This document shows, piece by piece, positions 4,906-33,599 of a DNA stretch of 39,996 bases. The notes beneath the pieces are model-generated. The model searched no databases and was not told the origin of the DNA. It was given only the letters and a program-made list of their open reading frames with translations. The stretch is from Nitrospirae bacterium JdFR-81 (GTDB taxonomy: Bacteria; Nitrospirota; Thermodesulfovibrionia; UBA6902). The first letter of the stretch is position 1. Every line of letters starts with the position of its first letter. Both the position numbers and the translations under genes were made by a program. The stretch is from NCBI GenBank assembly GCA_002011735.1, contig MTOQ01000090.1:1-39996 (forward strand), written 5' to 3'.

Positions 4906-7323
4906 TCACCCGCAACAGGCCTTCCCCTGTTGCAGTGGTTTTGTGCCCTTCAAAGTTACAGAATAGAAACTTATATACTCAACCTTTTTATAGAGATAGT
5001 TCTGCGTGAGGCTCACATCCGAAAATCCGACCTCCTTGACTATCTCGACAAACCTCTTGTCTGTCAATGCACCAGAGATACAGGCGTTCCAGAGTTCCTT
5101 GTCCCTCTTCATATAGCCTGGCACAGGCTTATCAGAGACGATGTCCGAGATGATAAACCTTCCGCCTGGCTTTAAGACCCTGAAGATCTCATCGATAACC
5201 TTTGCCTTATCCTCTGTCAGGTTTATCACACAATTGGAGATCACGAGGTCAATAGAGCCATCCTCTATGGGAAGCTCCATGAGGTTGCCCTTCCTGAATT
5301 CAACCACATTGTAACCGAGGACCTCTGCAACCTTCTTGGCACTCTCCGTCGCCTTCTCTATCATCTCATCCGTCATATCAACCCCTATCACCCTGCCGTT
5401 TCTGCCCACCTTCTTTGCGGCGATGAAGCAGTCGATACCACCACCTGAGCCGAGGTCCAGTATCGTCTCACCCTCCCTGATACCGGCAAGGGCAGCAGGG
5501 TTACCACATCCATAGGAGACCTCGAGCACCTCGTTCGGGATGTGCTCAAGGTCTTTGGGGTCATAACCTGTCGGGCAGTAGTAATCGGTCACCGGATCCT
5601 TGGCAGCCTTTGCAAACTTCAACTTCACCGTCTTTGTAACATGCCCCTTTATCTCTGGCTTACAGACCTCCTCATCGCCCTCCACATTGACAGACAGCAC
5701 GCATGTGCAGTGATGACACCCTACATCAAACCTCCTGTCCTTTGACTTAAAGCCATTGGCAAGGTATGATGGGAGTTTTGCATCCATGGCATTAAAGACA
5801 GTGGGCGTTATGTACCCCTCTGTGCCTTTCTGATAAACCCCCTCGGTGGCAAGGCTCCAGAGGGCGTCTTCATATAATACCTTATATGTTGAGCAATAAG
5901 GGTCCTGTGCCTCTATCGCACCCCTGCCTGTATCCACCTCGCTCGCATAATAGCTATGGGACTGGCAACCACCACCGCAGAGGTATCTAAGATAGCAATC
6001 TCCACATTCCGGCTTATTAAGCACCGTATTCGACCTGCATCTGTTCATAACATCAGAGTTGAGCCATATGTCCTTGAGGGATCGATCCCTTATCGAGCCT
6101 GCATCGAAGTTCTTGTCGCCATTCAATGAGGCACATGGATAGACATGACCATCTGAATTTACACATATCTTGTCCCAGCAATTATGGCATAGGTCGTACT
6201 TCCTCCCCCTCTTCGCCCTGACCCTTGCCTTCATCGCCTCCATATTGTCAACGATCACATCATCCTCTGTAAGGTACTCCTTCTTGAGCTCCCTCATTAT
6301 CTGCGCGATCCTGTCGGATGGCACAAAGAGCTCATTCAGGTTGTTCGCCCCCCTGCCCTTCGCATGCATCCAGAGGATGCTGTGCTCCTTTATACCCAGG
6401 GTGGCAAGAAAATCGGATGTCTCTTTTATATGGCCCTCATTGTATTTGTTAATGGCCGTGGAGACGATCGGGACTATCCCTGCCCCCAGGAGATTTCTTA
6501 TCCCTTTCAGGGCCTTTTCAAAACTGCCATTGCCCCTTAATCTATCGTGTATCTCTGCATTCGGCCCTTCAAGACTCACCTGAAACACAAGCCTTGGTGA
6601 GATGACGGACTTGATGCGGGATATCTTATCCTCGTCAAGGAGCATGGCGTTTGTGAGGATGATCAACTCACGCCCCTTCTTGTTGGTGATGTAGTCTATG
6701 ATCTCAAAGATATCCTCCCTTATGAATGGCTCACCACCGGTGATGTAGAACCTCCTTACACCAAGCCCTGTGGCCTCATCAACAAGCCCTATTATCTCCT
6801 CTGTGGTCAGCTCACCCTCAAGGGATTTACCTGCACTCACCAGACAGTGTTTACACCTGAGGTTGCATGAGAGGGTCACATATATCCAGAGCTCATCGAG
6901 CCTATCAGGTGTGACCGCCTTATCCCTGCCCGAATATGGTGGCCTCAAAAATTCCTTATCAGAGACGAAATCTATCGTCCCTGCTGCATTTACAAACTCC
7001 GCAACCTCCCTGTAGACATCTTCAGCCTTGCCATCCCCTATTCCATATCTCTCAGTGATCGCCTTCTGTATATCGACAAGCCTGTTCTTACCATTACACA
7101 TCTTTATGATCTCTGCACCCGTGCGATTCACACTTATCCAGTTTGGTGACTCAGGATCGATAAAGAGATACACACCGTCTCTCTCCTTGAGGACATACTC
7201 AGGACAATAGAGCACATCATCTGACTTGAAGACCTTGTGTGGGATCTCCCTTATCTTCCACTCATTGATCTGATATTGTTTTATCCTTAAATCCCTTGTT
7301 GGAGAGCAACATGATTCAGCCAT
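4906..7323 (-). CDS. PqqD-like / radical SAM-SPASM / ArsM-like methyltransferase fusion
   Basis: 805 residues in three parts. Residues 35-115 look like a PqqD/peptide-recognition fold (WISVNRTGAEII). Residues 144-480 are a radical SAM-SPASM enzyme: CNLRCKHC (Cys153, 157, 160), ITGGEP, and SPASM cysteines at 379, 382, 387, 397, 429, 440, 443, 449, 453 and 477, enough for two auxiliary clusters. Residues 580-805 match arsenite methyltransferase ArsM: YGCGNP, LDLGSGGGIDCFIAA (SAM motif I), SNCVINL (Cys698) and NACISGAL (Cys748), the two positions known to bind As(III) in ArsM, and a C-terminal ACCG. A linker at 520-560 has its own GCHHCTC motif and further Cys. Separate ArsM enzymes are well known; this joined architecture would combine radical chemistry with S-methyl transfer, perhaps on arsenic. 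Cytoplasmic. No ArsR gene is nearby. Confidence 0.85.
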   Translation of the reverse strand: MAESCCSPTRDLRIKQYQINEWKIREIPHKVFKSDDVLYCPEYVLKERDGVYLFIDPESPNWISVNRTGAEIIKMCNGKNRLVDIQKAITERYGIGDGKAEDVYREVAEFVNAAGTIDFVSDKEFLRPPYSGRDKAVTPDRLDELWIYVTLSCNLRCKHCLVSAGKSLEGELTTEEIIGLVDEATGLGVRRFYITGGEPFIREDIFEIIDYITNKKGRELIILTNAMLLDEDKISRIKSVISPRLVFQVSLEGPNAEIHDRLRGNGSFEKALKGIRNLLGAGIVPIVSTAINKYNEGHIKETSDFLATLGIKEHSILWMHAKGRGANNLNELFVPSDRIAQIMRELKKEYLTEDDVIVDNMEAMKARVRAKRGRKYDLCHNCWDKICVNSDGHVYPCASLNGDKNFDAGSIRDRSLKDIWLNSDVMNRCRSNTVLNKPECGDCYLRYLCGGGCQSHSYYASEVDTGRGAIEAQDPYCSTYKVLYEDALWSLATEGVYQKGTEGYITPTVFNAMDAKLPSYLANGFKSKDRRFDVGCHHCTCVLSVNVEGDEEVCKPEIKGHVTKTVKLKFAKAAKDPVTDYYCPTGYDPKDLEHIPNEVLEVSYGCGNPAALAGIREGETILDLGSGGGIDCFIAAKKVGRNGRVIGVDMTDEMIEKATESAKKVAEVLGYNVVEFRKGNLMELPIEDGSIDLVISNCVINLTEDKAKVIDEIFRVLKPGGRFIISDIVSDKPVPGYMKRDKELWNACISGALTDKRFVEIVKEVGFSDVSLTQNYLYKKVEYISFYSVTLKGTKPLQQGKACCG

Positions 7324-7380
7324 CTTCGCACCCCTTCTACTTAATTTAAGGTAGATATATCAAAGACTGGATAATACAAC

Positions 7381-7402
7381 ATAATAAATGTTTTTATATT
7401 AT
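7381..7402. promoter_or_regulatory. AT-rich dyad in divergent intergenic region
   Basis: ATAATA (7381-7386) and TATTAT (7397-7402) form an inverted repeat in the 184-bp divergent region between the ArsM-fusion gene (minus) and the MobB-like gene (plus). AT-rich dyads of this sort are common operators, including for ArsR-type repressors, but the 6-bp arms are short and could occur by chance. A TTGACT on the minus strand lies upstream of it. Confidence 0.25.
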
Positions 7403-7507
7403 AAAACTTACACCTAATCATCATAAAAGTCAAGGCCGCACAACCTGGACATCTCAACCCCTAACGACTTGCAGACAGAACGCCCTATCCTGTATCCTTA
7501 AGTTTTG

Positions 7508-8068
7508 ATGTCAGGGGTATTCAGGATAATCTCTGTAGCAGGTGCACACAGCGGGGTGGGCAAGACCACACTGTGCTCCCTCCTTCTCAGGGAACTAAGG
7601 GACTATGGTGCCATTAAGTTCACAAAGGAGGCCTTCGGCACGCCATTGATTGACAGTGAGGAGATAATCCTCCAGAAGGGGAAGGACACGGCCATAATGG
7701 TGTCCTCAGGTGCCAAGAAGGTCATACTCATAGGTGGCCAGGGGGAGACGCTGAGGGATGCACTTGAGAGAGCCATCGGTATGATGAGGCCATTCCGTGG
7801 CGTGATTATAGAGGGCAACGGCCCGATAGAATTCCTCAGGCCTGATCTATTAATATTTGTCATAGGCCCTGACAGGAAGATCAAGGCCCCTGCCATGGGA
7901 ATACTGGAGAGGGCGGATATAGTGGTCGTCAACTCCGAGGGCGGTGAGAGGGACACATCACTTATGGATAGACTGCGGACAGGGGCAAGGATATTCTTTG
8001 TTGACCTGAAGAATAAGGGACAGGAGACAGAGGCACTGCTCTCCTGTATAAAGGAGGCCATTGTCTGA
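7508..8068 (+). CDS. MobB-like P-loop nucleotide-binding protein
   Basis: 186 residues from ATG 7508 (an in-frame TTG sits just before it). The N-terminal Walker A is GAHSGVGKTT, typical of MobB, the GTP-binding partner in molybdopterin guanine dinucleotide formation and of related SIMIBI proteins. VIIEGNGPIEFLRPDLLIFV corresponds to the MobB strand carrying the E-G motif, and DIVVVNSEG to the guanine-binding region. No mobA or molybdoenzyme is adjacent. It precedes ccsA-hemA-hemC on the same strand. Function inferred only from the P-loop family. Confidence 0.7.
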   Translation: MSGVFRIISVAGAHSGVGKTTLCSLLLRELRDYGAIKFTKEAFGTPLIDSEEIILQKGKDTAIMVSSGAKKVILIGGQGETLRDALERAIGMMRPFRGVIIEGNGPIEFLRPDLLIFVIGPDRKIKAPAMGILERADIVVVNSEGGERDTSLMDRLRTGARIFFVDLKNKGQETEALLSCIKEAIV

Positions 8069-8129: not shown

Positions 8130-8951
8130 ATGGAGATAAATGTCCTTTTATTTGAACTGGCCCTTACATTCTACCTCCTCTCCACCATCACAGGTGTCAT
8201 AGAGCTGTTCAGGAGGAGGAAGGCCACCTCGAACGCAACACGATATCTGGCGATTATCGGGTTTCTATTCCACTCGGCAAACATCGTTGTCAGATACATC
8301 CAGGGAGGCCATATACCCATCATGACCATCCACGAGGCGTCCTCATTCTTCTCGTGGTGCATACTGTTGCTCTTCTTCTTCCACGAGTATCGTTACAGGC
8401 TGGGACTGTTGGGATCATTCATAATGCCCATTGTGTTTATACTTATGCTTTCATCATCCATCTTTCCAAGAGAGATCAAGGCCCTGAGCCCCGTGCTCAA
8501 GAGTTACTGGTTCGGTATCCATGTGACACTGGCCTTTGTCGGCGATGCTGCATTTGCCATGGCATGTGGCATCGGCATCATGTATCTCGTCCAGGAGAGA
8601 TACGTCAAATCAAAACACCTGAGCAGACTGTTCCAGAAGCTACCAAGCCTTGAGACACTCGATGCCATAAACTATCACCTAATCACACTCGGTTTCCCGC
8701 TCTTAACCCTTGCGATAATCACAGGTGCAATATGGGCGAACACCGCCTGGGGGACATTCTGGCGATGGGACCCCAAGGAGGTATGGTCATTGATAACATG
8801 GCTGATATATGCCTTGCTCCTGCACCTGAGACTCTCATACGGCTGGAGGGGTAGAAAGGCCTCTATCCTCTCAATAGGGGGGTTTTTATTTATCCTGTTT
8901 ACATTCTTCGGTGTAAGCCTGGTGATGAAGGGATTCCATGTCTTCGGGTAG
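8130..8951 (+). CDS. ccsA: Cytochrome c biogenesis protein CcsA/CcsB (heme handling)
   Basis: 273 residues with about eight membrane segments. The tryptophan-rich heme-handling (WWD) motif WGTFWRWDPKEVWS is at 207-220, and conserved His residues lie at 131, 183 and 232. Together with ResB/CcsB this protein moves heme across the membrane and attaches it to CxxCH motifs (system II). It sits 9 bp before hemA, a common pairing of heme synthesis with heme delivery. The matching ResB-like gene and a second CcsA paralog are at 32172-33599. Confidence 0.92.
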   Translation: MEINVLLFELALTFYLLSTITGVIELFRRRKATSNATRYLAIIGFLFHSANIVVRYIQGGHIPIMTIHEASSFFSWCILLLFFFHEYRYRLGLLGSFIMPIVFILMLSSSIFPREIKALSPVLKSYWFGIHVTLAFVGDAAFAMACGIGIMYLVQERYVKSKHLSRLFQKLPSLETLDAINYHLITLGFPLLTLAIITGAIWANTAWGTFWRWDPKEVWSLITWLIYALLLHLRLSYGWRGRKASILSIGGFLFILFTFFGVSLVMKGFHVFG

Positions 8952-8960
8952 AGACTCGTC

Positions 8961-10229
8961 ATGGAGATATTAGTTGTTGGTCTGAATCATAAGACAGCGC
9001 CCATAGAGATCAGGGAAAGGGTCGCATTTGATGGGCAGAAGATATTTGATGCCCTGAGGATACTGAGGGAGTCCGAGGTTGTGAGGGAGAGCATCATCCT
9101 GTCGACATGCAACAGGGTGGAGGTCTATGCAGGCGTAAAGGATGGGGAGGACGGGGCAGAGTTTATAAAGGGCTTCTTCTCGGACTTCCACAATATCCCG
9201 AGAGAGCTACTTGACAAAAGCCTGTATGTATACCACGGAGCAGAGGCGATAAGGCACATATTCAGGGTCTCCTCCAGCCTTGATTCGATGATCGTGGGTG
9301 AGCCACAGATACTGGGCCAGGTGAAGGATGCCTTCAGCCTCTCCTTGAAGAGCAAGAATACCGGTGTGGTGCTCAACAGATTGATGGAGAAGGCATCGTC
9401 CGTTGCAAAACGCATAAGGACAGAGACAAGGATCGCCGAGAGTGCCGTGAGCATAAGCTTTGCCGCTGTTGAGCTTGCAAAGAAGATATTCGGAGACCTC
9501 TCTGTCAAGAGCTTTATGCTCATAGGTGCCGGTGAGATGGCAGAGCTTGCCACCCGACACCTTATAAACAACGGAGTGAAGGATGTCTCTGTGACAAACC
9601 GCACATATGAGAGGGCAGAGGAACTTGCGAGGGAGTTTGGGGGGAGACCTGTAAGGTTCGATAACCTGCTGGATGAGCTCAAACATATTGACATAGTGAT
9701 ATGCTCCACAGGCGCACCCAACTACATCCTCACAAAACAGGACCTCCAGAGGATAATGAAACAGAGGAAACAGAAGCCCATGTTTATAATAGACATCTCC
9801 GTCCCGAGGAACATAGACCCCAAAATAAATGACCTTGATAATGTCTATCTCTATGATATAGATGACCTTCAGGGTGTGATAGAGCTGAATATCCAGGCCA
9901 GAAACAGGGAGGCACAGAAGGCCGAAGAGATCGTCACGGCAGAGGTCGAGTCATTCCTGAGGTGGAAGGCATCTCTCTCAGCCGTCCCCACGATCGTGGC
10001 ACTCAGGGATAAGGCAGAGATGATCAGGAAGGGCGAGCTTGAGAAGGCCCTCAGAAAGCTTGGACCCCTTGGTGAGGAGCAGATAAAGACCATCGATTAC
10101 CTGACAAAGGCGATCGTGAACAAACTCGTCCACCCTCCAACCGTTGCCCTCAAATTTGAACAGGAGGATAAAGACGAACTGATCGCCACGATCAGGAAGC
10201 TCTATGGCCTAAATAGTGAAAAGGGATAG
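8961..10229 (+). CDS. hemA: Glutamyl-tRNA reductase
   Basis: 422 residues, normal length. It makes glutamate-1-semialdehyde from Glu-tRNA(Glu), the first committed step of the C5 tetrapyrrole pathway. Visible signature: VVGLNHKTAPIEIRE at the start, catalytic Cys50 in LSTCNRVEVY, GEPQILGQVKDA, the NADPH-binding segment LIGAGEMAELATRHL and the C-terminal dimerisation helix. Upstream ccsA and downstream hemC make a heme/cytochrome locus. Confidence 0.97.
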   Translation: MEILVVGLNHKTAPIEIRERVAFDGQKIFDALRILRESEVVRESIILSTCNRVEVYAGVKDGEDGAEFIKGFFSDFHNIPRELLDKSLYVYHGAEAIRHIFRVSSSLDSMIVGEPQILGQVKDAFSLSLKSKNTGVVLNRLMEKASSVAKRIRTETRIAESAVSISFAAVELAKKIFGDLSVKSFMLIGAGEMAELATRHLINNGVKDVSVTNRTYERAEELAREFGGRPVRFDNLLDELKHIDIVICSTGAPNYILTKQDLQRIMKQRKQKPMFIIDISVPRNIDPKINDLDNVYLYDIDDLQGVIELNIQARNREAQKAEEIVTAEVESFLRWKASLSAVPTIVALRDKAEMIRKGELEKALRKLGPLGEEQIKTIDYLTKAIVNKLVHPPTVALKFEQEDKDELIATIRKLYGLNSEKG

Positions 10230-10237
10230 TGACTACC

Positions 10238-10267
10238 TTGACAACCCATCCAGCCTGAGGATAGTAT
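10238..10267 (+). promoter_or_regulatory. Probable hemC promoter
   Basis: TTGACA (10238-10243) and TAGTAT (10262-10267) are 18 bp apart, just after the hemA stop. This gives a leader of about 130 nt before hemC. Confidence 0.5.
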
Positions 10268-10290
10268 AACCTTCGGAAAGTTGGAGATAA

Positions 10291-10368
10291 ATGTGGTTAT
10301 CAAAATGGCAGGGAGAGGCGGCTATACTCAAAAAGATACTTCCTGCCTGTAGGAGCACATCAACATAA
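10291..10368 (+). CDS. Possible 25-codon leader ORF upstream of hemC
   Basis: ATG 10291 follows GGAG by 4 nt and opens a 25-codon frame (MWLSKWQGEAAILKKI...) ending at TAA 10366-10368, inside the hemC leader. It is positively charged and mildly amphipathic. No homolog is recognised. It may be a translated leader or chance. Confidence 0.25.
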   Translation: MWLSKWQGEAAILKKILPACRSTST

Positions 10369-10402
10369 GATCCCTGGGAATAAGCAAGACCGGAGATATA
10401 CC

Positions 10403-11374
10403 GTGAAGGAAAGGATCATCATCGCAACCCGTGGTAGCAAGCTTGCGATGTGGCAGGCAGAGTGGGTAAGGGGAGAGCTGCTGAGGAGGCACCCCGAGCT
10501 CAGGATAGAGTTCCTCAAGGTCAAGACGACAGGTGACAAGATCCTTGATGTCCCCCTTGCAAAGATAGGTGGTAAGGGGCTCTTTGTAAAGGAGATAGAG
10601 GAGGCCCTGCTGAGGGGGGATGCTGATCTTGCAGTGCACAGTATGAAGGATGTGCCAGTGATCCTGCCAGAGGGACTGCATATATCGGCCGTCTGTAAAA
10701 GGGAAGACCCCAGGGATGCCTTTGTGACCCAGATCCAAGATTCAAGATTCAAGATTCAAAGCTTCAATGGCCTGCCAAGAGGTGCAACGGTGGGGACAAG
10801 CAGTCTGAGGAGGGCGTGCCAGATACGTGCAAGAAGGCCTGACCTGGTGATAAAACAACTACGGGGAAACCTCGACACCCGAATAAGAAAGCTCGATGAG
10901 GGCCAGTTTGATGCCATAATAGTCGCCTCTGCCGGTATAAGGAGGCTCGGCATGGAGGAGAGGATTACAGAGCTGCTCTCAACAGATATAAGCCTCCCTG
11001 CAATAGGACAGGGTGCCATCGGTATAGAATGCAGGAAGGATGATGATCTTATAAATGACCTCCTTAGAGGCCTCAACCACAAGGAGACATCCATCTGTGT
11101 CAGGGCAGAGAGGGCCTTCTTAAAGAGGCTCGAAGGTGGCTGTCAGGTCCCGATTGCAGCATATGCAAGGATAAATCCATCATCCGATAGCCGTCAACAG
11201 TCACTGACCATTGAGGGACTTGTGGGAAGCATATCAGGTGATACCATCATAAGGGGATCCATGGAGGGGGTGGTTGAAGATCCTGAGGCAGTTGGAATGG
11301 CACTTGCCGAGGACCTCCTCTCAAGGGGTGCGGACAGGATACTCTCTGAGGTATACGGTAATCCAGAGGGTTGA
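10403..11374 (+). CDS. hemC: Hydroxymethylbilane synthase (porphobilinogen deaminase)
   Basis: 323 residues from GTG 10403, which has a GGAG about 8 nt upstream. It polymerises four porphobilinogens into hydroxymethylbilane. Seen: ATRGSKLAMWQAE, catalytic Asp83 in VHSMKDVP, VGTSSLRRACQ, LRGNLDTR and the dipyrromethane-cofactor Cys247 in EGGCQVPIAAY. Residues 110-121 between AFVTQ and GLPRG are longer than usual and are encoded by a 3x7-bp tandem repeat. The distance from hemA and the promoter in the gap suggest its own transcription start. Confidence 0.96.
   Translation: MKERIIIATRGSKLAMWQAEWVRGELLRRHPELRIEFLKVKTTGDKILDVPLAKIGGKGLFVKEIEEALLRGDADLAVHSMKDVPVILPEGLHISAVCKREDPRDAFVTQIQDSRFKIQSFNGLPRGATVGTSSLRRACQIRARRPDLVIKQLRGNLDTRIRKLDEGQFDAIIVASAGIRRLGMEERITELLSTDISLPAIGQGAIGIECRKDDDLINDLLRGLNHKETSICVRAERAFLKRLEGGCQVPIAAYARINPSSDSRQQSLTIEGLVGSISGDTIIRGSMEGVVEDPEAVGMALAEDLLSRGADRILSEVYGNPEG
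10737..10757 (+). repeat. Heptanucleotide tandem repeat inside hemC
   Basis: AAGATTC is repeated three times without error. It encodes part of a loop (QDSRFKIQS) that is short in other HemC proteins. 21 bp keeps the frame; gain or loss of one unit would shift it. Confidence 0.85.
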
Positions 11375-14718: not shown

Positions 14719-15789
14719 TCAGGCACCTATGAATGTTAATGGGTTCCTGTATTCATGGCACTGGGTGCAGACCTTTCTGGCAACCTCTTTTGTCACCCTC
14801 CATGAATGCTCTTTATGGCACTGGGTGCATTCAAGCCCAACGGTCTGGATATGTAGCTTGTGTTTACCGACATTCACTATCTGTGGATGACAGCTCAGGC
14901 ATGTCCCATAATCAGGCCTCACCTTTTTGTGGGGCCTGTGGCACTGGTAGCAGAAGAACTGCATGGGCGCATCCTTTGGTCTGTTTATCTTTATCGCCCT
15001 CTTGATGAGCTCCTCTGGTGGCTGGAAGTGCTTCACATCGATGGTCGCGTCAAGGATCAGCTCCTTCCTCACCGATTCGTCCCCATGACAGAAGAGGCAC
15101 TTCTTCGGCCCTGGCAGGAGGGTCGGGGTCCTGTCTGTATGACAGTTGAGGCAGGGCAGATCCACCATGCCCTTGCCATGCACCTCCCTGTCCTTGTGGC
15201 ATGTGATACAGTATCTCTCTTCAAGGGTGAACTGATGGACACGGTATCCATGGCACTTGGAACATTCGATCTTCTCCATGAAGTAGTGTCTTGCATGGAG
15301 CCTTGAGTTGTTGATCTTCTTTGCGGCAGGATACTCGGGATTCTCCTCCCAGTGGCATCCAACACAGTATTTCCACGGGACTATGATCTTCCCGTATCTC
15401 ACAGGGACCTTCTCGATCCTCCTGATAAAGGCACTGACCATCAGAGTGTTGAGTTCCTTTATTGTGAGGTGATGGCACTCGTGGCAATTTATATCCTTAT
15501 GTTCAGACTTCTTCCATGCCTCAAAGGCAGGCTCCATTATATGGCAGCTCTTGCAGAACTTGGGATTGTTCTGTGTGAAGTTATATGTTGTGAAGGCGGT
15601 AAAGCTTGCACCTATAATACTGATGAAGATCAGGATCGCTATTATCGCCTTTGCCAGTGTGGGTGTCCTGTCTCTGAAGTCCTTCCATCTGTCACACAGG
15701 CCCCTGATACCCTTTCGGAATTGCTTCTTTTGAGGCCTCTCCTCCTGGACCTCTTCCTTTTCCAATTTGGCCTTTTCCTTCTCCTCCAT
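14719..15789 (-). CDS. Membrane-anchored 11-heme c-type cytochrome (NapC/NirT-like N-terminus)
   Basis: 356 residues. A charged N-terminal tail, one membrane helix at about 45-67, then a NapC/NirT-like start (PKFCKSCHIMEPAFEAWKKS) and a long periplasmic part. I count eleven CxxCH motifs: CKSCH, CHECH, CVGCH, CSKCH, CITCH, CLNCH, CLFCH, CYQCH, CLSCH and two CTQCH. NapC-type proteins take electrons from menaquinol; the extra hemes make this a wire into or across the periplasm. Last gene of a four-gene operon with a NrfD-type quinone module, so the complex probably moves electrons between menaquinone and periplasmic acceptors. The redox partner is not visible. Confidence 0.9.
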   Translation of the reverse strand: MEEKEKAKLEKEEVQEERPQKKQFRKGIRGLCDRWKDFRDRTPTLAKAIIAILIFISIIGASFTAFTTYNFTQNNPKFCKSCHIMEPAFEAWKKSEHKDINCHECHHLTIKELNTLMVSAFIRRIEKVPVRYGKIIVPWKYCVGCHWEENPEYPAAKKINNSRLHARHYFMEKIECSKCHGYRVHQFTLEERYCITCHKDREVHGKGMVDLPCLNCHTDRTPTLLPGPKKCLFCHGDESVRKELILDATIDVKHFQPPEELIKRAIKINRPKDAPMQFFCYQCHRPHKKVRPDYGTCLSCHPQIVNVGKHKLHIQTVGLECTQCHKEHSWRVTKEVARKVCTQCHEYRNPLTFIGA

Positions 15790-15827
15790 CTGTCACCCTC
15801 CTGCCACGATGCTGGTCGTGGCTTGAA

Positions 15828-17075
15828 TTATTTATATCTTAAAGAAGGAATTATCTTGTTAAAGAAGTAGAAGAATATAAAGGGTAGAATCATTACCGTG
15901 AGGGCACCAACAAGCCCCTCTTTTGCCGTCTCAAGGTTATGTGGGATCAAAGGCATATGATACTCCATATACCCTGCAAATGTAAGGGAAAAGGCCTGCC
16001 CCCCGATCACCACATTCCACCTCATCATGAATACGCCAAAGAGGACGAGTATGAGGGCGATCACTGTCCTCTTAAGGTTAACACCTGGTATGAGGAGCAT
16101 GATGAAAGGCAGGAGGTTACCTATCCCGTACTGGAGGATGAATATATTCCTGAAGTCCTTCCCGTAGATGACCGAACGGAGTATATCCCAGGACTTCACA
16201 GCAGTGTATCCCCTGAATATGAGGTCAAGGAGCTCAAGGGTTATAGCAGCAATCATGAATCCAATGAGATACTTCGTGGCCTTCCTGACAAGGTCAATCT
16301 CGGCACCCTTCACCTCCTCCTCCGTCATATGCCAGTGCCTCCTTGCATGTCTGTGGATCTTCATCTTCTGCCATTCCATGATCACTATATACGTAAGGAG
16401 GCAGAGGGCGATCCCCGAGACAATGGCGGACATGATAAATATAACAGGCATCAGGGGTGTCATCCACAGGGCATTTGCCTTCACCGAACCGAATATAAAA
16501 CCAGCATATCCATGGAGAAAGCATGCAACCGGTATACCAAAGCCTGCAAGGAACTTCGATACCTTCTCATCTTTATGAAGGGCCTCTGGACTTATATCAT
16601 AGGCACCAAGTGTAAGGACCCTGTAGATATTCCTCTTTATCGCATTCCCGAGTCCCTCCTTATTCTTCAGCTCATTGACCTGCTCCACAAAGAACTTCCT
16701 GTATACAAACCATATCTCTGTTGCAACCACAGCGGTGTAAAAGGAGAAGACTATCCCAAATGCCGAGATTGCAGATGTGAAATGTGGTGTGACCAGGACA
16801 TGGAAGTTCCTCTCAGGGTGTTGGAGATGGAGCATAAGGGGCATTGGTGCACCGAGCAGGAGGGCAAAGGAGAAGACAAGGGCAAATTTTGCTATATCCT
16901 CAAGGTCTTTCTGTCCAAAGACATGGTACAGGGATGACAGAACAAATGCACCTGCCACAAGTCCTGTCAGATACGGATACATGACTATCTGGATGGTCCA
17001 GTATATAAATTCATTCGGATATGTGAATAGTTCTTTTACCGTCCATTCAAGACCATGCACATACGTCTCATGCAT
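15828..17075 (-). CDS. NrfD/PsrC-type quinone-interacting membrane subunit
   Basis: 415 residues with about ten predicted helices and the NrfD/PsrC family pattern (NEFIYWTIQIVMYPYLTGLV; LLLGAPMPLMLHLQHPER; GFIFGSVKANALWMTPLMPV). Family members bind menaquinone and pair with a four-cluster Fe-S subunit, as here. It is 7 bp after the Fe-S gene and 38 bp before the 11-heme cytochrome gene. It lacks heme ligands of its own so far as can be seen. Confidence 0.9.
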   Translation of the reverse strand: MHETYVHGLEWTVKELFTYPNEFIYWTIQIVMYPYLTGLVAGAFVLSSLYHVFGQKDLEDIAKFALVFSFALLLGAPMPLMLHLQHPERNFHVLVTPHFTSAISAFGIVFSFYTAVVATEIWFVYRKFFVEQVNELKNKEGLGNAIKRNIYRVLTLGAYDISPEALHKDEKVSKFLAGFGIPVACFLHGYAGFIFGSVKANALWMTPLMPVIFIMSAIVSGIALCLLTYIVIMEWQKMKIHRHARRHWHMTEEEVKGAEIDLVRKATKYLIGFMIAAITLELLDLIFRGYTAVKSWDILRSVIYGKDFRNIFILQYGIGNLLPFIMLLIPGVNLKRTVIALILVLFGVFMMRWNVVIGGQAFSLTFAGYMEYHMPLIPHNLETAKEGLVGALTVMILPFIFFYFFNKIIPSLRYK

Positions 17076-17082
17076 ATCTTCC

Positions 17083-17859
17083 CTACCTCACATTCTCATC
17101 TAATCCAAGATAGTATACCTGAGGTTTCGTCCCATATTCATCTTTTAATACACTGACCCTCTTTGTCAAGACCGTTATGGTCACAGGATCATTCGGATCC
17201 TTCAGGTTCCCTATCTGCCTTGCACCAAACGGGCAGGCCTGGACACATGCGGTCTTCAGGCCCTTCGTAATCCGATGATAGCAGAAGGTGCATTTCTCAG
17301 CAGTCCTGTATACAGGATGGAAGAACCTCGCACCATATGGACACGCCATTATGCAATAACCACACCCTATACACCATGATCTATCAACAAGCACCGCCCC
17401 ATCTGCAGTCTGATATGTCGCACCAACAGGGCAGACCTGCACACACGGGGGCCTCTCACAGTGATTGCATAACTTCGGGACAAAAAACGCCTTTGCTATG
17501 TCCTTTGGATTGACCACCTTCTCCTGTACCTTCTGGTCCGTAAACCCATCCCTTGCTCCCATTGGTGTATCTGCGAGCATCTTTCCATCCTTCAGTATCA
17601 CATACCTCTCAACCCATGTCCTTGTGACAGGTGTGTCATATGGAACCTCATTCTCTAACTTGCATGCCTTGACACAGAACCCACAGCCAACGCATTTACG
17701 TGTATCTACAAGAAAACCCCATCTGACCCTGGTCTTCTTGACCGCAGCCATTGCCTCATCAGGGGTCAGTAACTTAAAAGCGCTCATCGGGAGTGCGGTT
17801 ACTATGGCACCCTTAACAGCGGTTATCAGAAACTCTCTCCTTGTAAATCTCATTGCCAT
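17083..17859 (-). CDS. Tat-exported four-cluster ferredoxin-like subunit (NrfC/PsrB type)
   Basis: 258 residues. The N-terminus has a twin-arginine motif TRREFL and a hydrophobic stretch, so it is probably exported folded by Tat. Four [4Fe-4S] sites are visible: CVGCGFCVKAC, CNHCERPPCVQVC, CIGCGYCIMAC and CTFC with CVQAC. Such subunits pass electrons between a NrfD-type quinone protein and a periplasmic partner. Its start overlaps the tetraheme cytochrome gene by 10 bp. No molybdopterin catalytic subunit is in the operon. Confidence 0.92.
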   Translation of the reverse strand: MAMRFTRREFLITAVKGAIVTALPMSAFKLLTPDEAMAAVKKTRVRWGFLVDTRKCVGCGFCVKACKLENEVPYDTPVTRTWVERYVILKDGKMLADTPMGARDGFTDQKVQEKVVNPKDIAKAFFVPKLCNHCERPPCVQVCPVGATYQTADGAVLVDRSWCIGCGYCIMACPYGARFFHPVYRTAEKCTFCYHRITKGLKTACVQACPFGARQIGNLKDPNDPVTITVLTKRVSVLKDEYGTKPQVYYLGLDENVR

Positions 17860-18323
17860 CCCTCCAGGTCAGGCTCATGGGGGTCATGACACATAACGCA
17901 TTCCATATCAGGATTGTGCTCTTCTGGGATAAATCCCTTGATCTTTGACCTGTAGCTCTGTTTATATGGGAGATAGGAATGGCACCTCAGGCACAGTGCC
18001 CTCCTTGTATCAATGGTCAACTTCTCAGGGTCCTCGGGATGATCGATTGCAGGCCCATGACAGTTCTCACACTGTATTATCTTGTGTTTTGAATCCATGA
18101 TGCTGCTGTATTTATCATCATGGCATTCCTTACAATACTCTCGAGACCTGTATTTGACCTTGAATGCCTTCCATTCCTCCTCGTTGCTCTTTCTATGGAA
18201 GCTATACATAAAACCCCTTTCACCAACCCCAAAGTCAGAAGGCACTATGAACTGCCTCGCTATAAGGCTGAGCACAACAACACCCAGTATAATCCATAAT
18301 GGTCTGAATACGTGACTTTTCAT
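17850..18323 (-). CDS. Membrane-anchored tetraheme c-type cytochrome
   Basis: 157 residues: an N-terminal membrane anchor or uncleaved signal (about 8-27) and four heme motifs, CKECH, CENCH, CLRCH and CVMCH. The protein ends soon after MCHDPHEP. First gene of the NrfD-type operon; likely an electron carrier between the Fe-S subunit and the larger cytochrome or an external partner. Confidence 0.88.
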   Translation of the reverse strand: MKSHVFRPLWIILGVVVLSLIARQFIVPSDFGVGERGFMYSFHRKSNEEEWKAFKVKYRSREYCKECHDDKYSSIMDSKHKIIQCENCHGPAIDHPEDPEKLTIDTRRALCLRCHSYLPYKQSYRSKIKGFIPEEHNPDMECVMCHDPHEPDLEGWQ

Positions 18324-19816: not shown

Positions 19817-20284
19817 CTACATACAATCAAGGGTGATAAAGTCCCTCCTGTCCTTATCCCACTTATAACATCTCACACCCCTGACCTCACCCTTAACAAC
19901 CGAAACGACGATGTGGATGGCGTCAGGAAACTCAGGCTCTCCAAACACGGTCTGAGCAGCCACATCGGTCTCGGAGAAGTATGCGTCACAATCTATGTGG
20001 GAGTGATAGAAGGCCAGTATGGCCTCCCCCTTCTCCCTCGCCGTTGCGTAGATCCTCTCGGCCTCTCTGCGATCAATGGTATAGGCCGTCCTTGCATCCC
20101 TCGGATATCTATCAGGGTCTTGCAGGTGGAGTTCGTTCTGAACATTCCTGCACCTGTGGACGGTTTGATGATCTGCATCACCTGTCACAATACCGCAACA
20201 CTCATGAGGATACTCATCAATTGCATGTTTATATATCTCTCCGATAACCCCCCTTATCACCCATTGCCTCCTGTCCATTGCCAT
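19817..20284 (-). CDS. JAMM/MPN+ metallopeptidase, Mec-like
   Basis: 155 residues with the complete JAMM zinc site: Glu28 in HECCGIV, then His94, His96 and Asp107 in HSHIDCDAYFSETD (HxHx10D). In actinobacteria the homolog Mec cleaves cysteine from the C-terminus of the sulfur carrier CysO after CysM has built it there. This gene follows cysM by 7 bp, and cysK lies before that, so the same protein-bound cysteine route is likely. No CysO/ThiS-like carrier gene with a C-terminal GG is found in the window. Cytoplasmic. Confidence 0.85.
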   Translation of the reverse strand: MAMDRRQWVIRGVIGEIYKHAIDEYPHECCGIVTGDADHQTVHRCRNVQNELHLQDPDRYPRDARTAYTIDRREAERIYATAREKGEAILAFYHSHIDCDAYFSETDVAAQTVFGEPEFPDAIHIVVSVVKGEVRGVRCYKWDKDRRDFITLDCM

Positions 20285-20291
20285 AAGCGTT

Positions 20292-21203
20292 TTATATCTC
20301 GTGACTCAGATACCTGTCTCCACCATCAGGGAATATCACCACGATCGTGCCTTCATCCAGACCCTCTGCCACCCTGAGCGCTGCAAACATCGCAGCGCCT
20401 GAGGAATGTCCCACCGCAAGTCCCTCCATGGTTATGAGCCTCTTCACCATATCATATGCATCCTCTGTATTGACATAGATGGTCTCATCAGGAAAACCTG
20501 TATCATAAATGCCAGGGACTATAGAGGACTTCATATGCTTCAGGCCCTCTATACCGTGCATTGCATCATCAGGCTGGACAGCGATGATCCGTATATTACG
20601 ATTAAACTCCCTCAGTGCCCTTCCTGCCCCTGTGATCGTCCCCCCTGTCCCGACACCTGCGACAAGATGCGTTATCCTCCCCTTTGTCTGCCTGATTATC
20701 TCAGGCCCTGTGGTCAGATAATGGGCCTTTGGGTTTGAAGGGTTGTTATACTGGTCTGGCATAAAGTATCTATCAGGCGATTCATCATATATCTTCCTTG
20801 CAAGCCTTATGGCCCCGTCAGCCCCCTCAAATGGACTCGAATAGACGATCTCGGCCCCGAAGCCTGCTATTATCCTCTTCCTCTCTATGCTCGCATTCTC
20901 AGGCAGGATGATCTTCAACCTGTAGCCCTTTACAGCGGCGATCATGGCATAGGCGATGCCTGTATTGCCTGATGTTGAATCGATTATGATCTTATCAGGG
21001 GTGAGTAGCCCTGCCTCCTCGGCATCCTTTATCATCTGGTATGCAGCACGATCCTTTACAGAGCCCCCTGGATTGTATCTCTCAAGCTTTGCATAGATGG
21101 TTACACCCCTCTTCAGATGAGATGTGATCCTGTTCAGACGCAGAAGAGGCGTCCTGCCTATTGTGCCGAGTATGTCCCTTTCAACCCTGTCAATGAGCCT
21201 CAT
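20292..21203 (-). CDS. cysM: Cysteine synthase, CysM type
   Basis: 303 residues from ATG 21203 (in-frame TTG at 21215). A PLP-dependent enzyme with the lysine in NPGGSVKDRAAYQMI, the substrate loop STSGNTGIAYA and the phosphate loop GVGTGGTITG. VQPDDAMHGIEGLKHM resembles CysO-dependent or phosphoserine-using CysM rather than ordinary CysK. The adjacent Mec-like JAMM protease supports sulfur transfer from a thiocarboxylated carrier protein. Second of three genes (cysK-cysM-mec). Confidence 0.88.
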   Translation of the reverse strand: MRLIDRVERDILGTIGRTPLLRLNRITSHLKRGVTIYAKLERYNPGGSVKDRAAYQMIKDAEEAGLLTPDKIIIDSTSGNTGIAYAMIAAVKGYRLKIILPENASIERKRIIAGFGAEIVYSSPFEGADGAIRLARKIYDESPDRYFMPDQYNNPSNPKAHYLTTGPEIIRQTKGRITHLVAGVGTGGTITGAGRALREFNRNIRIIAVQPDDAMHGIEGLKHMKSSIVPGIYDTGFPDETIYVNTEDAYDMVKRLITMEGLAVGHSSGAAMFAALRVAEGLDEGTIVVIFPDGGDRYLSHEI

Positions 21204-21233
21204 ATTCCTGATCAAACCCGTTTAAGCCTTGAA

Positions 21234-22169
21234 TTATCTAAACAGCCTCGTGCTTATATACCTCTCCCCTGTATCCGGGAAGATGGTCACCACCCTCCTG
21301 CCCCTGCCCAATCCCCTTGCCACCTTCATCGAGGCAAACAGGTTCGCCCCTGATGATATACCGCAGAGTATCCCCTCCTCCCTTATAATCCTCCTTGCCG
21401 TCTCATATGCGTCTTCATCCGTGACCTGTATCACCTCGTCTATGATATCCAAGTTCAGTATCTCGGGCACAAACCCTGCACCTATCCCCTGAATATCGTG
21501 CAGTCCCTGCCTCCCGCCTGAGAGCACAGGGCTCTTGGCAGGCTCAACAGCAACGATCCTCACCCTCTCACCAAACCTCTCCCTGAGCACCTCACCAACC
21601 CCTGTAATCGTCCCTCCTGTCCCGACACCTGCGACAAAGGCATCTATCTCCTCCAGCTGCTCCAGTATCTCCATGGCCGTGCTCCTCCTGTGAGATTCGG
21701 GATTCATCGGGTTCTTGAACTGTTGTGGCTGAAAGTATCCTTTCTCATCCGCAAGCTCCTGTGCCTTCTCAACGGCCCCTGCCATATCCCTCTCACCAGG
21801 CGTCAGGATCAGCTCCGCACCAAATGCCTTGAGCATATTCCGCCGTTCTATACTCATGGTCTCTGGCATGGTGAGGACAAGCCTGTAGCCCTTTGCAGCA
21901 CATACAAACGCAAGCCCTATCCCTGTATTACCTGAGGTGGGCTCCACAATCGTATCGCCAGGCCTGATCCTGCCCTGCCTCTCGGCCTCCTCAATCATCA
22001 GGAGACATATCCTGTCCTTCACAGAGCCACAGGGGTTGAAGAACTCCACCTTGGCGTATATCTCTGCAGAGTCAGGATCGCCCAGTTTATTGATCCTCAC
22101 CATAGGTGTATTGCCTATGAGCTCAAGGACCGACTCCACAGGCTCGGAATAAAAGAGGGCCTCTTCCAT
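21234..22169 (-). CDS. cysK: Cysteine synthase A
   Basis: 311 residues; GAGGAGG Shine-Dalgarno before ATG 22169. PLP lysine Lys51 in NPCGSVKDRICLLMI, PTSGNTGIGLAF, GVGTGGTITGVGEVL and GISSGANLFAS are classic for O-acetylserine sulfhydrylase. HDIQGIGAGFVPEIL fits CysK specificity. The downstream cysM differs in these loops, so the two probably use different acceptors or sulfur donors. Confidence 0.93.
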   Translation of the reverse strand: MEEALFYSEPVESVLELIGNTPMVRINKLGDPDSAEIYAKVEFFNPCGSVKDRICLLMIEEAERQGRIRPGDTIVEPTSGNTGIGLAFVCAAKGYRLVLTMPETMSIERRNMLKAFGAELILTPGERDMAGAVEKAQELADEKGYFQPQQFKNPMNPESHRRSTAMEILEQLEEIDAFVAGVGTGGTITGVGEVLRERFGERVRIVAVEPAKSPVLSGGRQGLHDIQGIGAGFVPEILNLDIIDEVIQVTDEDAYETARRIIREEGILCGISSGANLFASMKVARGLGRGRRVVTIFPDTGERYISTRLFR

Positions 22170-27787: not shown

Positions 27788-28726
27788 CTATAATTTAAAG
27801 GTCTTATAAAGTTCAAGTGGATAGAGGATCAAGCCGATAAGGAATAGGGCGATTGAGGGATAAAGGAGGGGCACCATCGCATCCCTCACAAAAACCACCT
27901 CTATCCATTTCCGTGTCCTTCCAGCCTTAAGGAGTAAGCTATTACCCTCCAGGGTCTGATTATCGCTGAGCAGGCCGTCAAGGATCACCTCCCCTCCCCT
28001 CGTAACCCTCACCGCATATGAGGGGCTGTTGAGCCTGTAGTGTATAGGCCCTATATCCCTGCCTCCGTCCCTCCTGTAGCCTGCAAGCCGTATGGTGAGG
28101 GAGTATCCATCATTAAGGGGTATCGTCCTCTCCCTGCCTGGCGGGAGCATCCTGATCTTTGGCAGGACAAAGACCCCTGAATCTGAGATAACCTCAAGCG
28201 TTGGGGATATATTCGCATCGTTTATATATGCATAGCCTGAGGAGGTCATCGTGAACGGGAATGTCCTGATGGCAAGCCTCCTCCCCCTGTCATTAATGGT
28301 GGCCTCAACACCCCTGACCAAGATACCGGAGGCCTCGCCAACAACGGCTATCTCATCAGGTATATCCATCCTTATATCCACAAGAACCTGGCCATCACCT
28401 GTGCTTTCAGAGGCGGCCATTCTGTATACAGTCTCATCCCTTAAGATGTGTGAAAGATATACACCTCCTATGAGGACAGACAGGGACAGGAGCATGATGG
28501 TTGATGGAAGGGCATTGAACCTGGAGGACGAGAACCTCCTGAGCCCCTTCAGTAGGATGTGTATGGAAAACAGGACCACGGGTAGGGCGTAAAGGGGCTC
28601 TGTCCCTGCAAGGTTCAGGAAGGCGTGTAACGGCTCATCATATTTAAAACTCAGTTGAAGATACATGCCAGAAAGCGATGCAATGAGTATCAGTGTAAGC
28701 CTTCCTGATGTCAAGGTTCTTATCAT
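27788..28726 (-). CDS. Membrane protein of unknown function
   Basis: 312 residues from ATG 28726, which overlaps the stop of the FTR1-DUF2318 gene (TGATG). Three N-terminal membrane helices (about 5-25, 45-65, 80-95), a soluble beta-rich region at about 105-275 that is probably periplasmic, and one C-terminal helix. The layout of helices around a periplasmic domain recalls ResB-like proteins, but no ResB motif or heme ligand is evident. Context suggests a partner of the iron-permease-like fusion upstream. Confidence 0.6.
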   Translation of the reverse strand: MIRTLTSGRLTLILIASLSGMYLQLSFKYDEPLHAFLNLAGTEPLYALPVVLFSIHILLKGLRRFSSSRFNALPSTIMLLSLSVLIGGVYLSHILRDETVYRMAASESTGDGQVLVDIRMDIPDEIAVVGEASGILVRGVEATINDRGRRLAIRTFPFTMTSSGYAYINDANISPTLEVISDSGVFVLPKIRMLPPGRERTIPLNDGYSLTIRLAGYRRDGGRDIGPIHYRLNSPSYAVRVTRGGEVILDGLLSDNQTLEGNSLLLKAGRTRKWIEVVFVRDAMVPLLYPSIALFLIGLILYPLELYKTFKL

Positions 28727-30003
28727 CAATCCCCCACCCATCTCTCATAGGTCTTTATGATATGTGATCTCCTGAGGATCAACCTGTCATCCTCAAGCCT
28801 GTATTCAAGGGGGATGGGATTACATCCCCCTGACTCTCCCATTGACTGGACCGGTATGGGTGTCCCGCAGTATTTACACACTATATATCCTCCCCTCTGG
28901 ATGTAACCCTCTGGCGGACATATATCACATGCATCAAGCGCTGCAATGACCTTGCCATCAGGCCTCATCATGATGAGGAACCTGTATGTCTCACCCTTAT
29001 AGTCAAAGGAATACTTTCTGATCCGTCCATCAGAGATGTCGCCGTCCTGGCCTGTCAGGGGGATCTCTATCTCATCGCCTTCCACTATAATCGGCATTGG
29101 CTCAGGATCATAGACCGGGTTGAGTCGCAGGTTTGCTGAATGTAAAAGGACAATCGATATAAACAGGGACAGGACAACAGGTGTGCCCCTCCTTATAAGC
29201 TCATCTATGTAGGTTGAGATGACCTTCCTCCTCTCTGCCTTCTTCTCTATCCCCTCTGTGGATGGCTCAGGGCTGAGCATGAGCCTGAGGAACACATAGA
29301 TCATGGGCATAAATATGATGATCGCTGTGATGGCCATCGCCACCCTCTGTGAACCGAGATAATCAAAGAACCCAGCACACGGGGGCCTCACGATCCCTCC
29401 GTGTGGTATGAGGAAAGTGCCTTCAAGAAATGGGATGAGGGATGACAGGAGGTGGTATATGCCACGCTGTAGTGAGACAATGACAGGCGTGTCGTCAAAC
29501 TCGTTCATACCACCAAAGAGGAAACAGAGGGTGGCGATGATGATCATGACACTCCTGTGGTCAATAAACCTCCTCAGGTCCAATCCTGACAGGGACCGCG
29601 TGGCAACGATGAACACCACCACACCCATCAGGGCCCCTGTAGCTGCATATAAATAGACACCACCTCCCCTCAGGGATACACCATCCATCACCACCTCTGT
29701 GAGGATGGCCGATGGCAGAAGGAGTGCGAGTATCACGCCTATAAGCGGATATACAATGCCTCCTGTTGATACAAGGGACAGGAGGAGTATCATGATGAAT
29801 GAATAAAATAGGAAGCCTGAATACATCTTTTCTGCAAGCCCTGTGACAGGGTGATTTATTAAGGTTAAGAGGACTCCGGCAAGGATGGTGATGGCAGCAG
29901 ACAGTATGAGGGCCTTTCTGTGTTCTTTATAGACGCCTGTTATGAGGAAAAGGATTAACGAATATTCCAGGAACTCTCTTAAGGTTATGAGTAACAGGGC
30001 CAT
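28726..30003 (-). CDS. FTR1-like permease fused to DUF2318 Fe-S/metal domain
   Basis: 425 residues from ATG 30003. The N-terminal ~240 residues are a polytopic membrane region starting with TLREFLEYS, the REXXE iron-ligand motif of FTR1-type iron permeases (only one such motif is visible). After a further helix near 275-290 comes a periplasmic DUF2318 domain with Cys pairs at about 360/363 and 377/380 (CDICPPEG, CKYCGTPI) and GGCNPIPL. DUF2318 proteins are linked to iron or copper uptake (Ftr-type systems). It follows the B12 radical SAM gene by 4 bp and overlaps the next gene. Probably imports iron for cytochromes or Fe-S proteins. Confidence 0.8.
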   Translation of the reverse strand: MALLLITLREFLEYSLILFLITGVYKEHRKALILSAAITILAGVLLTLINHPVTGLAEKMYSGFLFYSFIMILLLSLVSTGGIVYPLIGVILALLLPSAILTEVVMDGVSLRGGGVYLYAATGALMGVVVFIVATRSLSGLDLRRFIDHRSVMIIIATLCFLFGGMNEFDDTPVIVSLQRGIYHLLSSLIPFLEGTFLIPHGGIVRPPCAGFFDYLGSQRVAMAITAIIIFMPMIYVFLRLMLSPEPSTEGIEKKAERRKVISTYIDELIRRGTPVVLSLFISIVLLHSANLRLNPVYDPEPMPIIVEGDEIEIPLTGQDGDISDGRIRKYSFDYKGETYRFLIMMRPDGKVIAALDACDICPPEGYIQRGGYIVCKYCGTPIPVQSMGESGGCNPIPLEYRLEDDRLILRRSHIIKTYERWVGD

Positions 30004-30007
30004 CAAG

Positions 30008-32870: not shown

Positions 32871-33599
32871 CTAAAACTGTGTCCAGGGACTGCCGATTAT
32901 TGGCATCACGCCTAAATAGGCAAAGATCAATACCGGAAATCCAGCCACACCAAGGACCACCGAGACCCTGCCTGAAAGCGCCTTCACCTGCCTTCCATGC
33001 AGATAGAAACCATAATAGAACCAGACTATGGTTATCCACAGCTCCTTCGCTGTCCAGAGCCAGTAGGAGCCATAGGTATAATAGAACCAGAAGCTTCCAC
33101 CTATCAAGGAGAAGGAGAAGAACAGCCACCCAAAGAGTGCCAGTCTGTACTGGAGCGTCTCATGAGTCAGGGCCTTCCCCCTGAGATAAGAGATGCCAGC
33201 AACCGAGCTGAGGATAAAGAAAGCATAACCGATTATGAGAAAGACTATATGCATATAAAACCACTTTGACTCCATATAGGGCTCTATCGAATCCATCCTT
33301 ATCTGGAAGACCGCAAAGAAACAGAGGAGGATGACAAATAGCGGGAGTGTGTCAAGGAGCATATTCAGTGGGATCCTCTTGTTCAGGTAGAAAAAACCAC
33401 CTGCGACTATTAAACCCATGATAAGGAGTATGTCGTGCCTCTCTGTAACAGGGACCCACCCAAGATACAGACCCCTGTATACCATATAGCCGACATGGAG
33501 TAATAGACCTGCTATAAAGAGGTTCCTTCCTTTCCTGTCCCCAGTTAATGAGAGGCTGTATAGGGCAATAAATGCCAGTATCCAGGGGGCATTTATCAT
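32871..33599 (-). CDS. ccsA: Second CcsA-family cytochrome c assembly protein, divergent WWD motif
   Basis: 242 residues, about seven or eight helices. The heme-handling motif at 176-188 reads YGSYWLWTAKELW, where the usual form (as in the paralog at 8130) is W..FWRWDPKEVW: Asp and Pro are replaced by Thr and Ala. His45-type and His117/His201-type ligands remain possible (HVGYM, YMHIVF, FYLHGR). Overlaps the preceding membrane gene by 4 bp and is followed at once by resB. May serve a particular cytochrome set. Confidence 0.85.
   Translation of the reverse strand: MINAPWILAFIALYSLSLTGDRKGRNLFIAGLLLHVGYMVYRGLYLGWVPVTERHDILLIMGLIVAGGFFYLNKRIPLNMLLDTLPLFVILLCFFAVFQIRMDSIEPYMESKWFYMHIVFLIIGYAFFILSSVAGISYLRGKALTHETLQYRLALFGWLFFSFSLIGGSFWFYYTYGSYWLWTAKELWITIVWFYYGFYLHGRQVKALSGRVSVVLGVAGFPVLIFAYLGVMPIIGSPWTQF

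Follow-up and report, generated by a model that had tools for sequence, protein, structure and literature searches.

The stretch of DNA analysed here, called the window (39,996 nucleotides, contig MTOQ01000090.1, our contig C18), belongs to the draft genome of Nitrospirae bacterium JdFR-81 (class Thermodesulfovibrionia, Nitrospirota; GCA_002011735.1; 2.05 Mb in 95 contigs, 96% complete, no 16S hit) and carries a four-gene operon, which encodes a tetraheme c-type cytochrome (C4), an iron-sulfur ferredoxin subunit (FeS), an NrfD-family membrane subunit (NrfD) and an undecaheme c-type cytochrome (C11). With moderate confidence, we read this operon as an NrfD-type menaquinol:multiheme-cytochrome oxidoreductase that in Nitrospirota would pass electrons from C4 to C11 and from there to periplasmic or outer-membrane carriers. 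The C4-FeS-NrfD core, termed the triad below, is known and widespread, and C11 is the new part. A 2018 survey of Nitrospirae reports a single CbcL homologue and neither CymA nor ImcH (PMC6295460), and C11 is a conserved candidate for the link from the quinone pool to the outside in Nitrospirota with porin-cytochrome modules.

The four proteins and their motifs

The first-pass annotation of this DNA had claimed the order tetraheme cytochrome, Tat (twin-arginine translocation) Fe-S protein, NrfD and 11-heme cytochrome, with fifteen heme sites and four Fe-S clusters, and this is what we find: four minus-strand open reading frames (ORFs; Table 1) that hold 4 + 11 CXXCH motifs and, in FeS, four sets of four Cys (16 in all), i.e., four [4Fe-4S] clusters by motif. 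C4 and C11 are the sole stop-to-stop frames in the window with at least two CXXCH, and 20,000 shuffles of each protein gave a mean of 0.02 and a maximum of 2 such motifs by chance for C4, and of 0.09 and 3 for C11. Besides NrfD, the Pfam matches in the operon are Fer4_11, Cytochrom_c3_2 and Cytochrome_C7.

Quinone chemistry in the NrfD subunit is well supported. The protein is a member of the NrfD/PsrC family (Pfam PF03916, 122.9 bits against a cut-off of 25.8), and its Y33, H83, S101, Y113, Y190 and R352, all invariant in 18 relatives, align with Y21, H74, S92, Y104, Y162 and R306 of E. coli NrfD, positions described for quinone binding and ion paths (PMC8076601). Its structural model, with a predicted local distance difference test score (pLDDT) of 74, matches ActC of four alternative complex III (ACIII) structures at Z 29.4-30.2 over 361-364 residues (root-mean-square deviation 3.5) and PsrC at Z 16.8; sequence searches against PDB chains gave no match, whereas the fold search matched both ActC and PsrC. 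In a maximum-likelihood tree built from 43 NrfD proteins, with long branches flagged among the outer groups, the triad NrfD proteins fall into one clade (100/99), and DsrP together with the companion 'BC' NrfD of the Rieske-cytochrome b set described below groups apart from it (100/100). The host genome's DsrP and 'BC' NrfD carry Asp and Lys at the positions of H83 and R352. The assignment of NrfD as DsrP, and thus as part of DsrMKJOP, was rejected on the grounds of the separate clade, of His83/Arg352 against Asp/Lys and of a tetraheme C4 against the triheme DsrJ; the host genome keeps a separate DsrMKJOP of its own besides the triad. Since it holds a DsrA above cut-off and DsrMKJOP-like genes on contig C6, the host is likely a sulfate or sulfite reducer.

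All four proximal His of C4 are invariant in 15 C4 sequences, as are the non-motif His 80, 95, 136 and 149, exactly four spare His for four hemes; C4 therefore resembles an electron wire rather than an enzyme. Its hemes are predicted to be hexacoordinate and non-catalytic, which the sequence supports. FeS begins with a Tat-like N-terminus (TRREFL) and is likely exported, and its profile scores are highest for TtrB and DsrO.

Across 16 C11 sequences the eleven proximal His never vary, and the same holds for at least eight further non-motif His, while a ninth is kept in 15 of the 16. Some orthologues have 10 CXXCH, the ninth site being CX3CH in locus L047 and the sixth broken in L051. The first heme site, CKSCHIM, follows the N-terminal anchor and has the CXXCHxM form found in NrfH (Met85 in 15/16). 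The earlier label 'NapC-type' is apt as to resemblance, which lies in CXXCHxM, in the anchor and in a PDB profile match to NrfH (2j7a_C, E 2.8e-10), but it does not extend to family membership, with C11 scoring below the cut-offs of Pfam Cytochrom_NNT (PF03264, NapC/NirT; 22.5 against 24.1 bits) and of NrfH (TIGR03153; 52.7 against 134.2 bits). C11 has a 10-heme paralogue on contig C6 of the host genome, where a further FeS-NrfD pair, the third, lies close by together with a triheme cytochrome (L010:1290-2102 and 5514-7959). The gene of ~430 amino acids (aa) that precedes C11 in relatives was rejected as a partner of C11, since it reads as what we take, from its sequence, to be hemL, glutamate-1-semialdehyde aminotransferase.

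Distribution and linkage of the triad and C11

Two sets of sequences were compared: 61 relatives, the near genomes, and named genomes represented by the best 80 triad loci of a longer match list. The sets share members (L086/G028, L133/G034, L138/G056, L139/G050) and their counts are not additive. Triad-type NrfD (at least 52% identity) occurs in 22/61 near genomes. By tblastn, the best 80 loci hold NrfD in 80, FeS in 80 and C4 in 76, and their titles name Nitrospirota in 28, Gammaproteobacteria in 12 (Woeseiaceae, Chromatiales and unclassified) and others in 39, mostly Desulfobulbales, Desulfuromonadales or 'Deltaproteobacteria', with one locus lacking a phylum (L085). Geobacter-titled metagenome-assembled genomes (MAGs) also carry the triad, at an NrfD identity of 64-66%. 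The triad makes up an NrfD subfamily of its own that is widespread in Nitrospirota, Desulfobacterota (including the Geobacter-type MAGs) and Gammaproteobacteria.

Orthologues of C11 are present in 19/61 near genomes, and a profile search (E <= 1e-60) found C11 in 105 of the 395 genomes of the phylum Nitrospirota, some of the weakest of these matches being partial (~200 of 335 positions). C11 and a close NrfD are both present in 15 near genomes and lie side by side in 12 of these, in the order triad-C11 in four and C11-triad in eight; the co-occurrence of C11 and triad has a Fisher p of 5e-6 over genomes and 0.004 over genera. The two are on different contigs in G047, G050 and G056. Among the best 80 loci, 22 of the 28 Nitrospirota-titled ones have C11 at a distance of 4.5 kb or less from the triad, and none of the 51 gammaproteobacterial and other loci does. 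Furthermore, 34 non-Nitrospirota triad genomes (for 34 of these 51 loci) were searched whole and gave no match to C11, using the same query that did find orthologues among the near genomes; C11 looks specific to the phylum Nitrospirota. The hemL-type gene is linked to it in 14 of the 22 C11-bearing Nitrospirota-titled loci. The comparison of gene order that the first-pass annotation had put forward shows C11 linked to the triad in Nitrospirota, in two arrangements; the core is not unusual and is of a kind published for Geobacter and cable bacteria. Sequence supports the linkage of C11 to the triad, just as it supports the parts and their motifs, the quinone site, the hexacoordinate C4 hemes and a likely export of FeS.

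Outside Nitrospirota the triad has another frequent neighbour, a DUF2339-like multi-helix protein of 560-635 aa (L107:10054-11736, L096:6479-8287, L137:11376-13199), which lies within 4.5 kb in 35/51 loci: in all 12 gammaproteobacterial loci, always on the same strand, and in 23 of the 39 others, on the same strand in 8 and on the opposite strand in 15 (often Desulfobulbales). None was found near the triad in the 28 Nitrospirota loci, a count that covers the loci and not whole Nitrospirota genomes. When three representatives were compared with Pfam, one was above the DUF2339 cut-off and one had no match. The triad occurs in three phyla and, depending on the lineage, has C11 or the DUF2339-like protein as its fourth gene; this offers a handle on the role of a common NrfD complex, and the handle extends to the complex proposed for cable bacteria, if that is of the same kind as the triad.

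A further set co-occurs with the triad. Contig C49 of the host genome (L011:8284-13803) holds Rieske, cytochrome b, 5-heme, 4-heme, FeS, NrfD and 3-heme cytochrome genes in one cluster, a cytochrome bc/NrfD hybrid. Its cytochrome b, counted at 58% identity or more, occurs in 9/22 triad genomes and in 1/39 others (p 2.2e-4; genera p 2.6e-4), and seven of the nine have it no more than 8 kb from the triad. NrfA was rejected as a partner: its co-occurrence with the triad is weak (12/22 with, 8/39 without), and PF02335 gave no match in the host genome at E 1e-30. A separate cluster in Desulfobulbales/Desulfobacterales (L162:864-6946, L163:1846-7781, L164:1608-7509, L165:935-6861) encodes a weakly PsrA-like protein of ~770-840 aa, two tetraheme cytochromes, FeS and NrfD.

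Proposed electron route and its alternatives

In the mechanism that we propose, menaquinol would bind and be oxidised at the periplasmic (outer) face of NrfD, and electrons would enter the exported FeS protein, pass its four clusters and reach the membrane-anchored C4. In Nitrospirota, C4 would deliver them to C11, which as a long heme wire with an anchor of its own brings the number of hemes in the chain to fifteen, and C11 would hand them to periplasmic carriers and to a DmsE/MtrA-like cytochrome that belongs to an outer-membrane porin module. We infer that the four proteins form one complex, that electrons flow outward and that they end on an extracellular acceptor; C11 may accept electrons from other quinone modules as well.

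A likely porin-cytochrome module is found on contig C57 of the host genome (L171:160-3104), where the gene of a DmsE/MtrA-family cytochrome overlaps that of an MtrB/PioB-like barrel and is followed by two substrate-binding proteins. The cytochrome, with nine CXXCH and one CX3CH, scores 255.9 bits against the DmsE-family decaheme profile (cut-off 192.2), and the barrel scores 41.6 bits against MtrB_PioB (cut-off 23) and 33.1 against NCBIfam MtrB, below the cut-off of 240. Across the near genomes, MtrB-like (MtrB_PioB) hits occur in 10/19 with C11 and 5/42 without (p 0.0012; genera p 0.02), a link taken from ten tested pairs and from mostly weak, partial barrel matches in related genomes. Eleven of the 19 barrel places were inspected, and all eleven have a nine-CXXCH ORF beside a barrel ORF of 640-690 aa. 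The first-pass annotation had suggested a menaquinone-cytochrome conduit for extracellular or syntrophic electron transfer; the conduit is consistent with the conserved quinone-site residues and its extracellular role gains indirect support from the MtrAB-like pair and the C11-MtrB co-occurrence, but no support was found for syntrophy. Tentatively, and with more doubt than belief, the C4-FeS-NrfD-C11 set could be seen as a distinct inner-membrane gateway for extracellular electron transfer (EET), in which NrfD serves as an energy-coupling quinone module and is joined by an undecaheme wire to an MtrA/DmsE-like outer-membrane cytochrome, i.e., a Nitrospirota counterpart of CymA, ImcH or CbcL.

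The limits of the porin-C11 link weigh against outward flow through the triad and C11, and so do several other observations. MtrB_PioB does not track the triad (8/22 with, 7/39 without, p 0.13). The triad stands without C11 in 7/22 triad genomes and C11 without a close NrfD in 4/19 C11 genomes; in two of those four (G037, G051), C11 adjoins a Psr-like FeS-NrfD-molybdoenzyme set, and at L056:8645-15375 and L057:8630-15398 such a set and a 12-heme cytochrome lie next to C11. The AlphaFold2 model of C11 (pLDDT 51) is unusable for fold or reach. The presence of the triad in 9/10 genomes with the Rieske-cytochrome b set points instead towards a role of complex III type.

C11 could be an NrfH/NapC-like menaquinol dehydrogenase in its own right, sharing an operon in some genomes, so that the quinone pool has two parallel exits, and we regard this as possible but somewhat doubtful: the NrfH-like anchor, CXXCHxM with its nearly constant Met85, the four genomes with C11 and no close NrfD, the three more with C11 on separate contigs and the linkage to hemL all fit it, whereas adjacency to the triad in most genomes with both and in most Nitrospirota-titled triad loci, scores below the curated NapC/NirT and NrfH cut-offs, and quinol-site residues matched only at CXXCHxM speak against it. 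It is rather unlikely, in our judgement, that the triad and the Rieske-cytochrome b-pentaheme-tetraheme-FeS-NrfD set together form a complex III replacement or a supercomplex feeding periplasmic cytochromes. The co-occurrence and proximity of cytochrome b, the set on contig C49 and a tandem h4-FeS-NrfD ahead of the triad in Geobacter-type loci point that way; however, cytochrome b is missing in 13/22 triad genomes, set and triad are on different contigs in the host genome, and the companion NrfD is unmatched in 10 of the 11 gammaproteobacterial triad genomes, with a weak match (21%) in the eleventh.

Qrc, also of FeS and NrfD type, is described as reducing menaquinone (PMC13059093), a bidirectional mode is reported for EET quinone enzymes (PMC6295460), and DsrMKJOP and DsrA in the host genome would need electrons, all of which would suit an inward flow in which C11 and C4 carry electrons of periplasmic or extracellular donors to menaquinone. 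We consider this unlikely, given that H83 matches the quinol-oxidising E. coli NrfD whereas QrcD and DsrP1 carry Asp there, and that triad and DsrA are distributed independently of each other (DsrA in 19/22 with the triad, 33/39 without, p 1.0). The same DsrA counts make a DsrJOP-like or Mcc-like module for sulfite, thiosulfate or polysulfide respiration quite improbable, as do the position of NrfD apart from DsrP in the tree, the Asp/Lys of DsrP against His83/Arg352, the lack of a catalytic subunit and a candidate His ligand for every C4 heme, even though FeS scores best as TtrB and DsrO, dsr genes are present in the host genome and C11 adjoins Psr-like genes in two relatives (G037, G051). 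We retain the menaquinol:multiheme-cytochrome oxidoreductase as the preferred reading.

Comparison with described complexes and the surrounding genes

The closest published description is that of CbcSTU (Cbc4) of Geobacter, a four-heme c cytochrome, a 4Fe-4S protein and an integral membrane subunit proposed to act as a menaquinol:cytochrome c oxidoreductase (PMC10989804, PMC11434368). The triad has the same make-up in one operon, a likeness judged from the published composition; CbcSTU lacks C11, and Geobacter-type MAGs hold two h4-FeS-NrfD kinds. The possibility, foreseen in the first-pass annotation, that an identical operon had already been assigned to a known complex therefore applies to the make-up of the triad, but C11 is new. 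In cable bacteria, the pACIII or TMH1-dsrOhPh-tetrahaem locus is described as comprising a tetrahaem cytochrome, FeS and an NrfD-family subunit and is proposed, as a 'candidate ACIII', to move quinone-pool electrons to the periplasm (PMC13047784, PMC11976967). Loci of this type are reported in Desulfobulbales and in Gamma- and Betaproteobacteria, with TMH1 called unique to cable bacteria. His-His hemes are given for its tetrahaem cytochrome, and C4 offers four invariant spare His as candidate ligands. The triad likewise occurs in Desulfobulbales and Gammaproteobacteria, a likeness taken from the published description, and the cable-bacteria locus is without C11. Because cable-bacteria DsrPh has been placed near DsrP and the window NrfD lies far from DsrP, the latter may be another h4-FeS-NrfD kind.

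Other complexes share fewer features. ACIII has in common with the operon the ActC-like NrfD fold and the combination of FeS, NrfD and multiheme c cytochrome, but the triad operon has no ActB1-like fusion (its FeS being 258 aa), no second NrfD subunit and no ActA pentaheme. NrfABCD and MccACD share the NrfC-type FeS, NrfD and a multiheme cytochrome, whereas NrfA, NrfB and MccA are all missing beside the triad. Compared with Qrc, QrcD scores 23.2 bits of 570 and QrcC 102.7 of 400, and the operon has no QrcB-like gene. Composition, tree and site residues thus bear out the earlier statement that the operon is distinct from Nrf, Psr and Qrc sets, and set it apart from Dsr as well. In Methanoperedenaceae, NrfD, a 4Fe-4S protein and multiheme cytochromes are described in one cluster with a proposed outward electron flow (PMC7327174, PMC7082337); these menaquinone:cytochrome c oxidoreductases are archaeal, have other heme numbers and are likened here by description. 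C11 resembles CymA and NrfH (NapC/NirT) in anchor and CXXCHxM, but has eleven hemes against four and falls below the family cut-offs. The undecaheme cytochromes mentioned for other bacteria belong to porin clusters, which is another context (PMC13264449). We found no paper that describes the four genes together, or a NapC-type cytochrome with eleven hemes from Nitrospirota, in a search that was thin on subscription journals.

Table 1. Positions of the operon genes and of the heme-supply genes in the window
Feature	Position	Strand	Remarks
C4, tetraheme c-type cytochrome	17850-18323	minus	157 aa; one N-terminal membrane anchor
FeS, NrfC/PsrB-type ferredoxin subunit	17083-17859	minus	258 aa; 10-nt overlap with C4
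NrfD-family quinone-reactive membrane subunit	15828-17075	minus	415 aa; 7-nt gap from FeS
C11, undecaheme c-type cytochrome	14719-15789	minus	356 aa; N-terminal anchor; 38-nt gap from NrfD
Cytochrome c assembly protein, glutamyl-tRNA reductase and porphobilinogen deaminase genes	8130-11374	plus	heme supply; outside operon

The earlier observation that no catalytic molybdoenzyme or reductase stands beside the operon was confirmed, and a Pfam scan of part of the window's ORFs found none either. Promoter and terminator scans remained at chance level. The operon is flanked, on the same minus strand, by miaA (IPP transferase domain) and a gene for a GDSL-type hydrolase, as identified with Pfam, and the nearest end of the heme-supply genes hemA, hemC and the cytochrome c assembly gene is ~3.3 kb from C11. 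Upstream of the operon (19817-22169) are a JAB-domain gene and two cysteine synthase genes; a cysM-like gene lies directly 3' of the triad in three relatives (G050, G056, G047; L075:9292-10224, L077:7113-8030). Further along the window (28726-30006 and 32871-33599), genes are present for an iron-sulfur membrane protein resembling FtrD and for another cytochrome c assembly protein, the second in this DNA.

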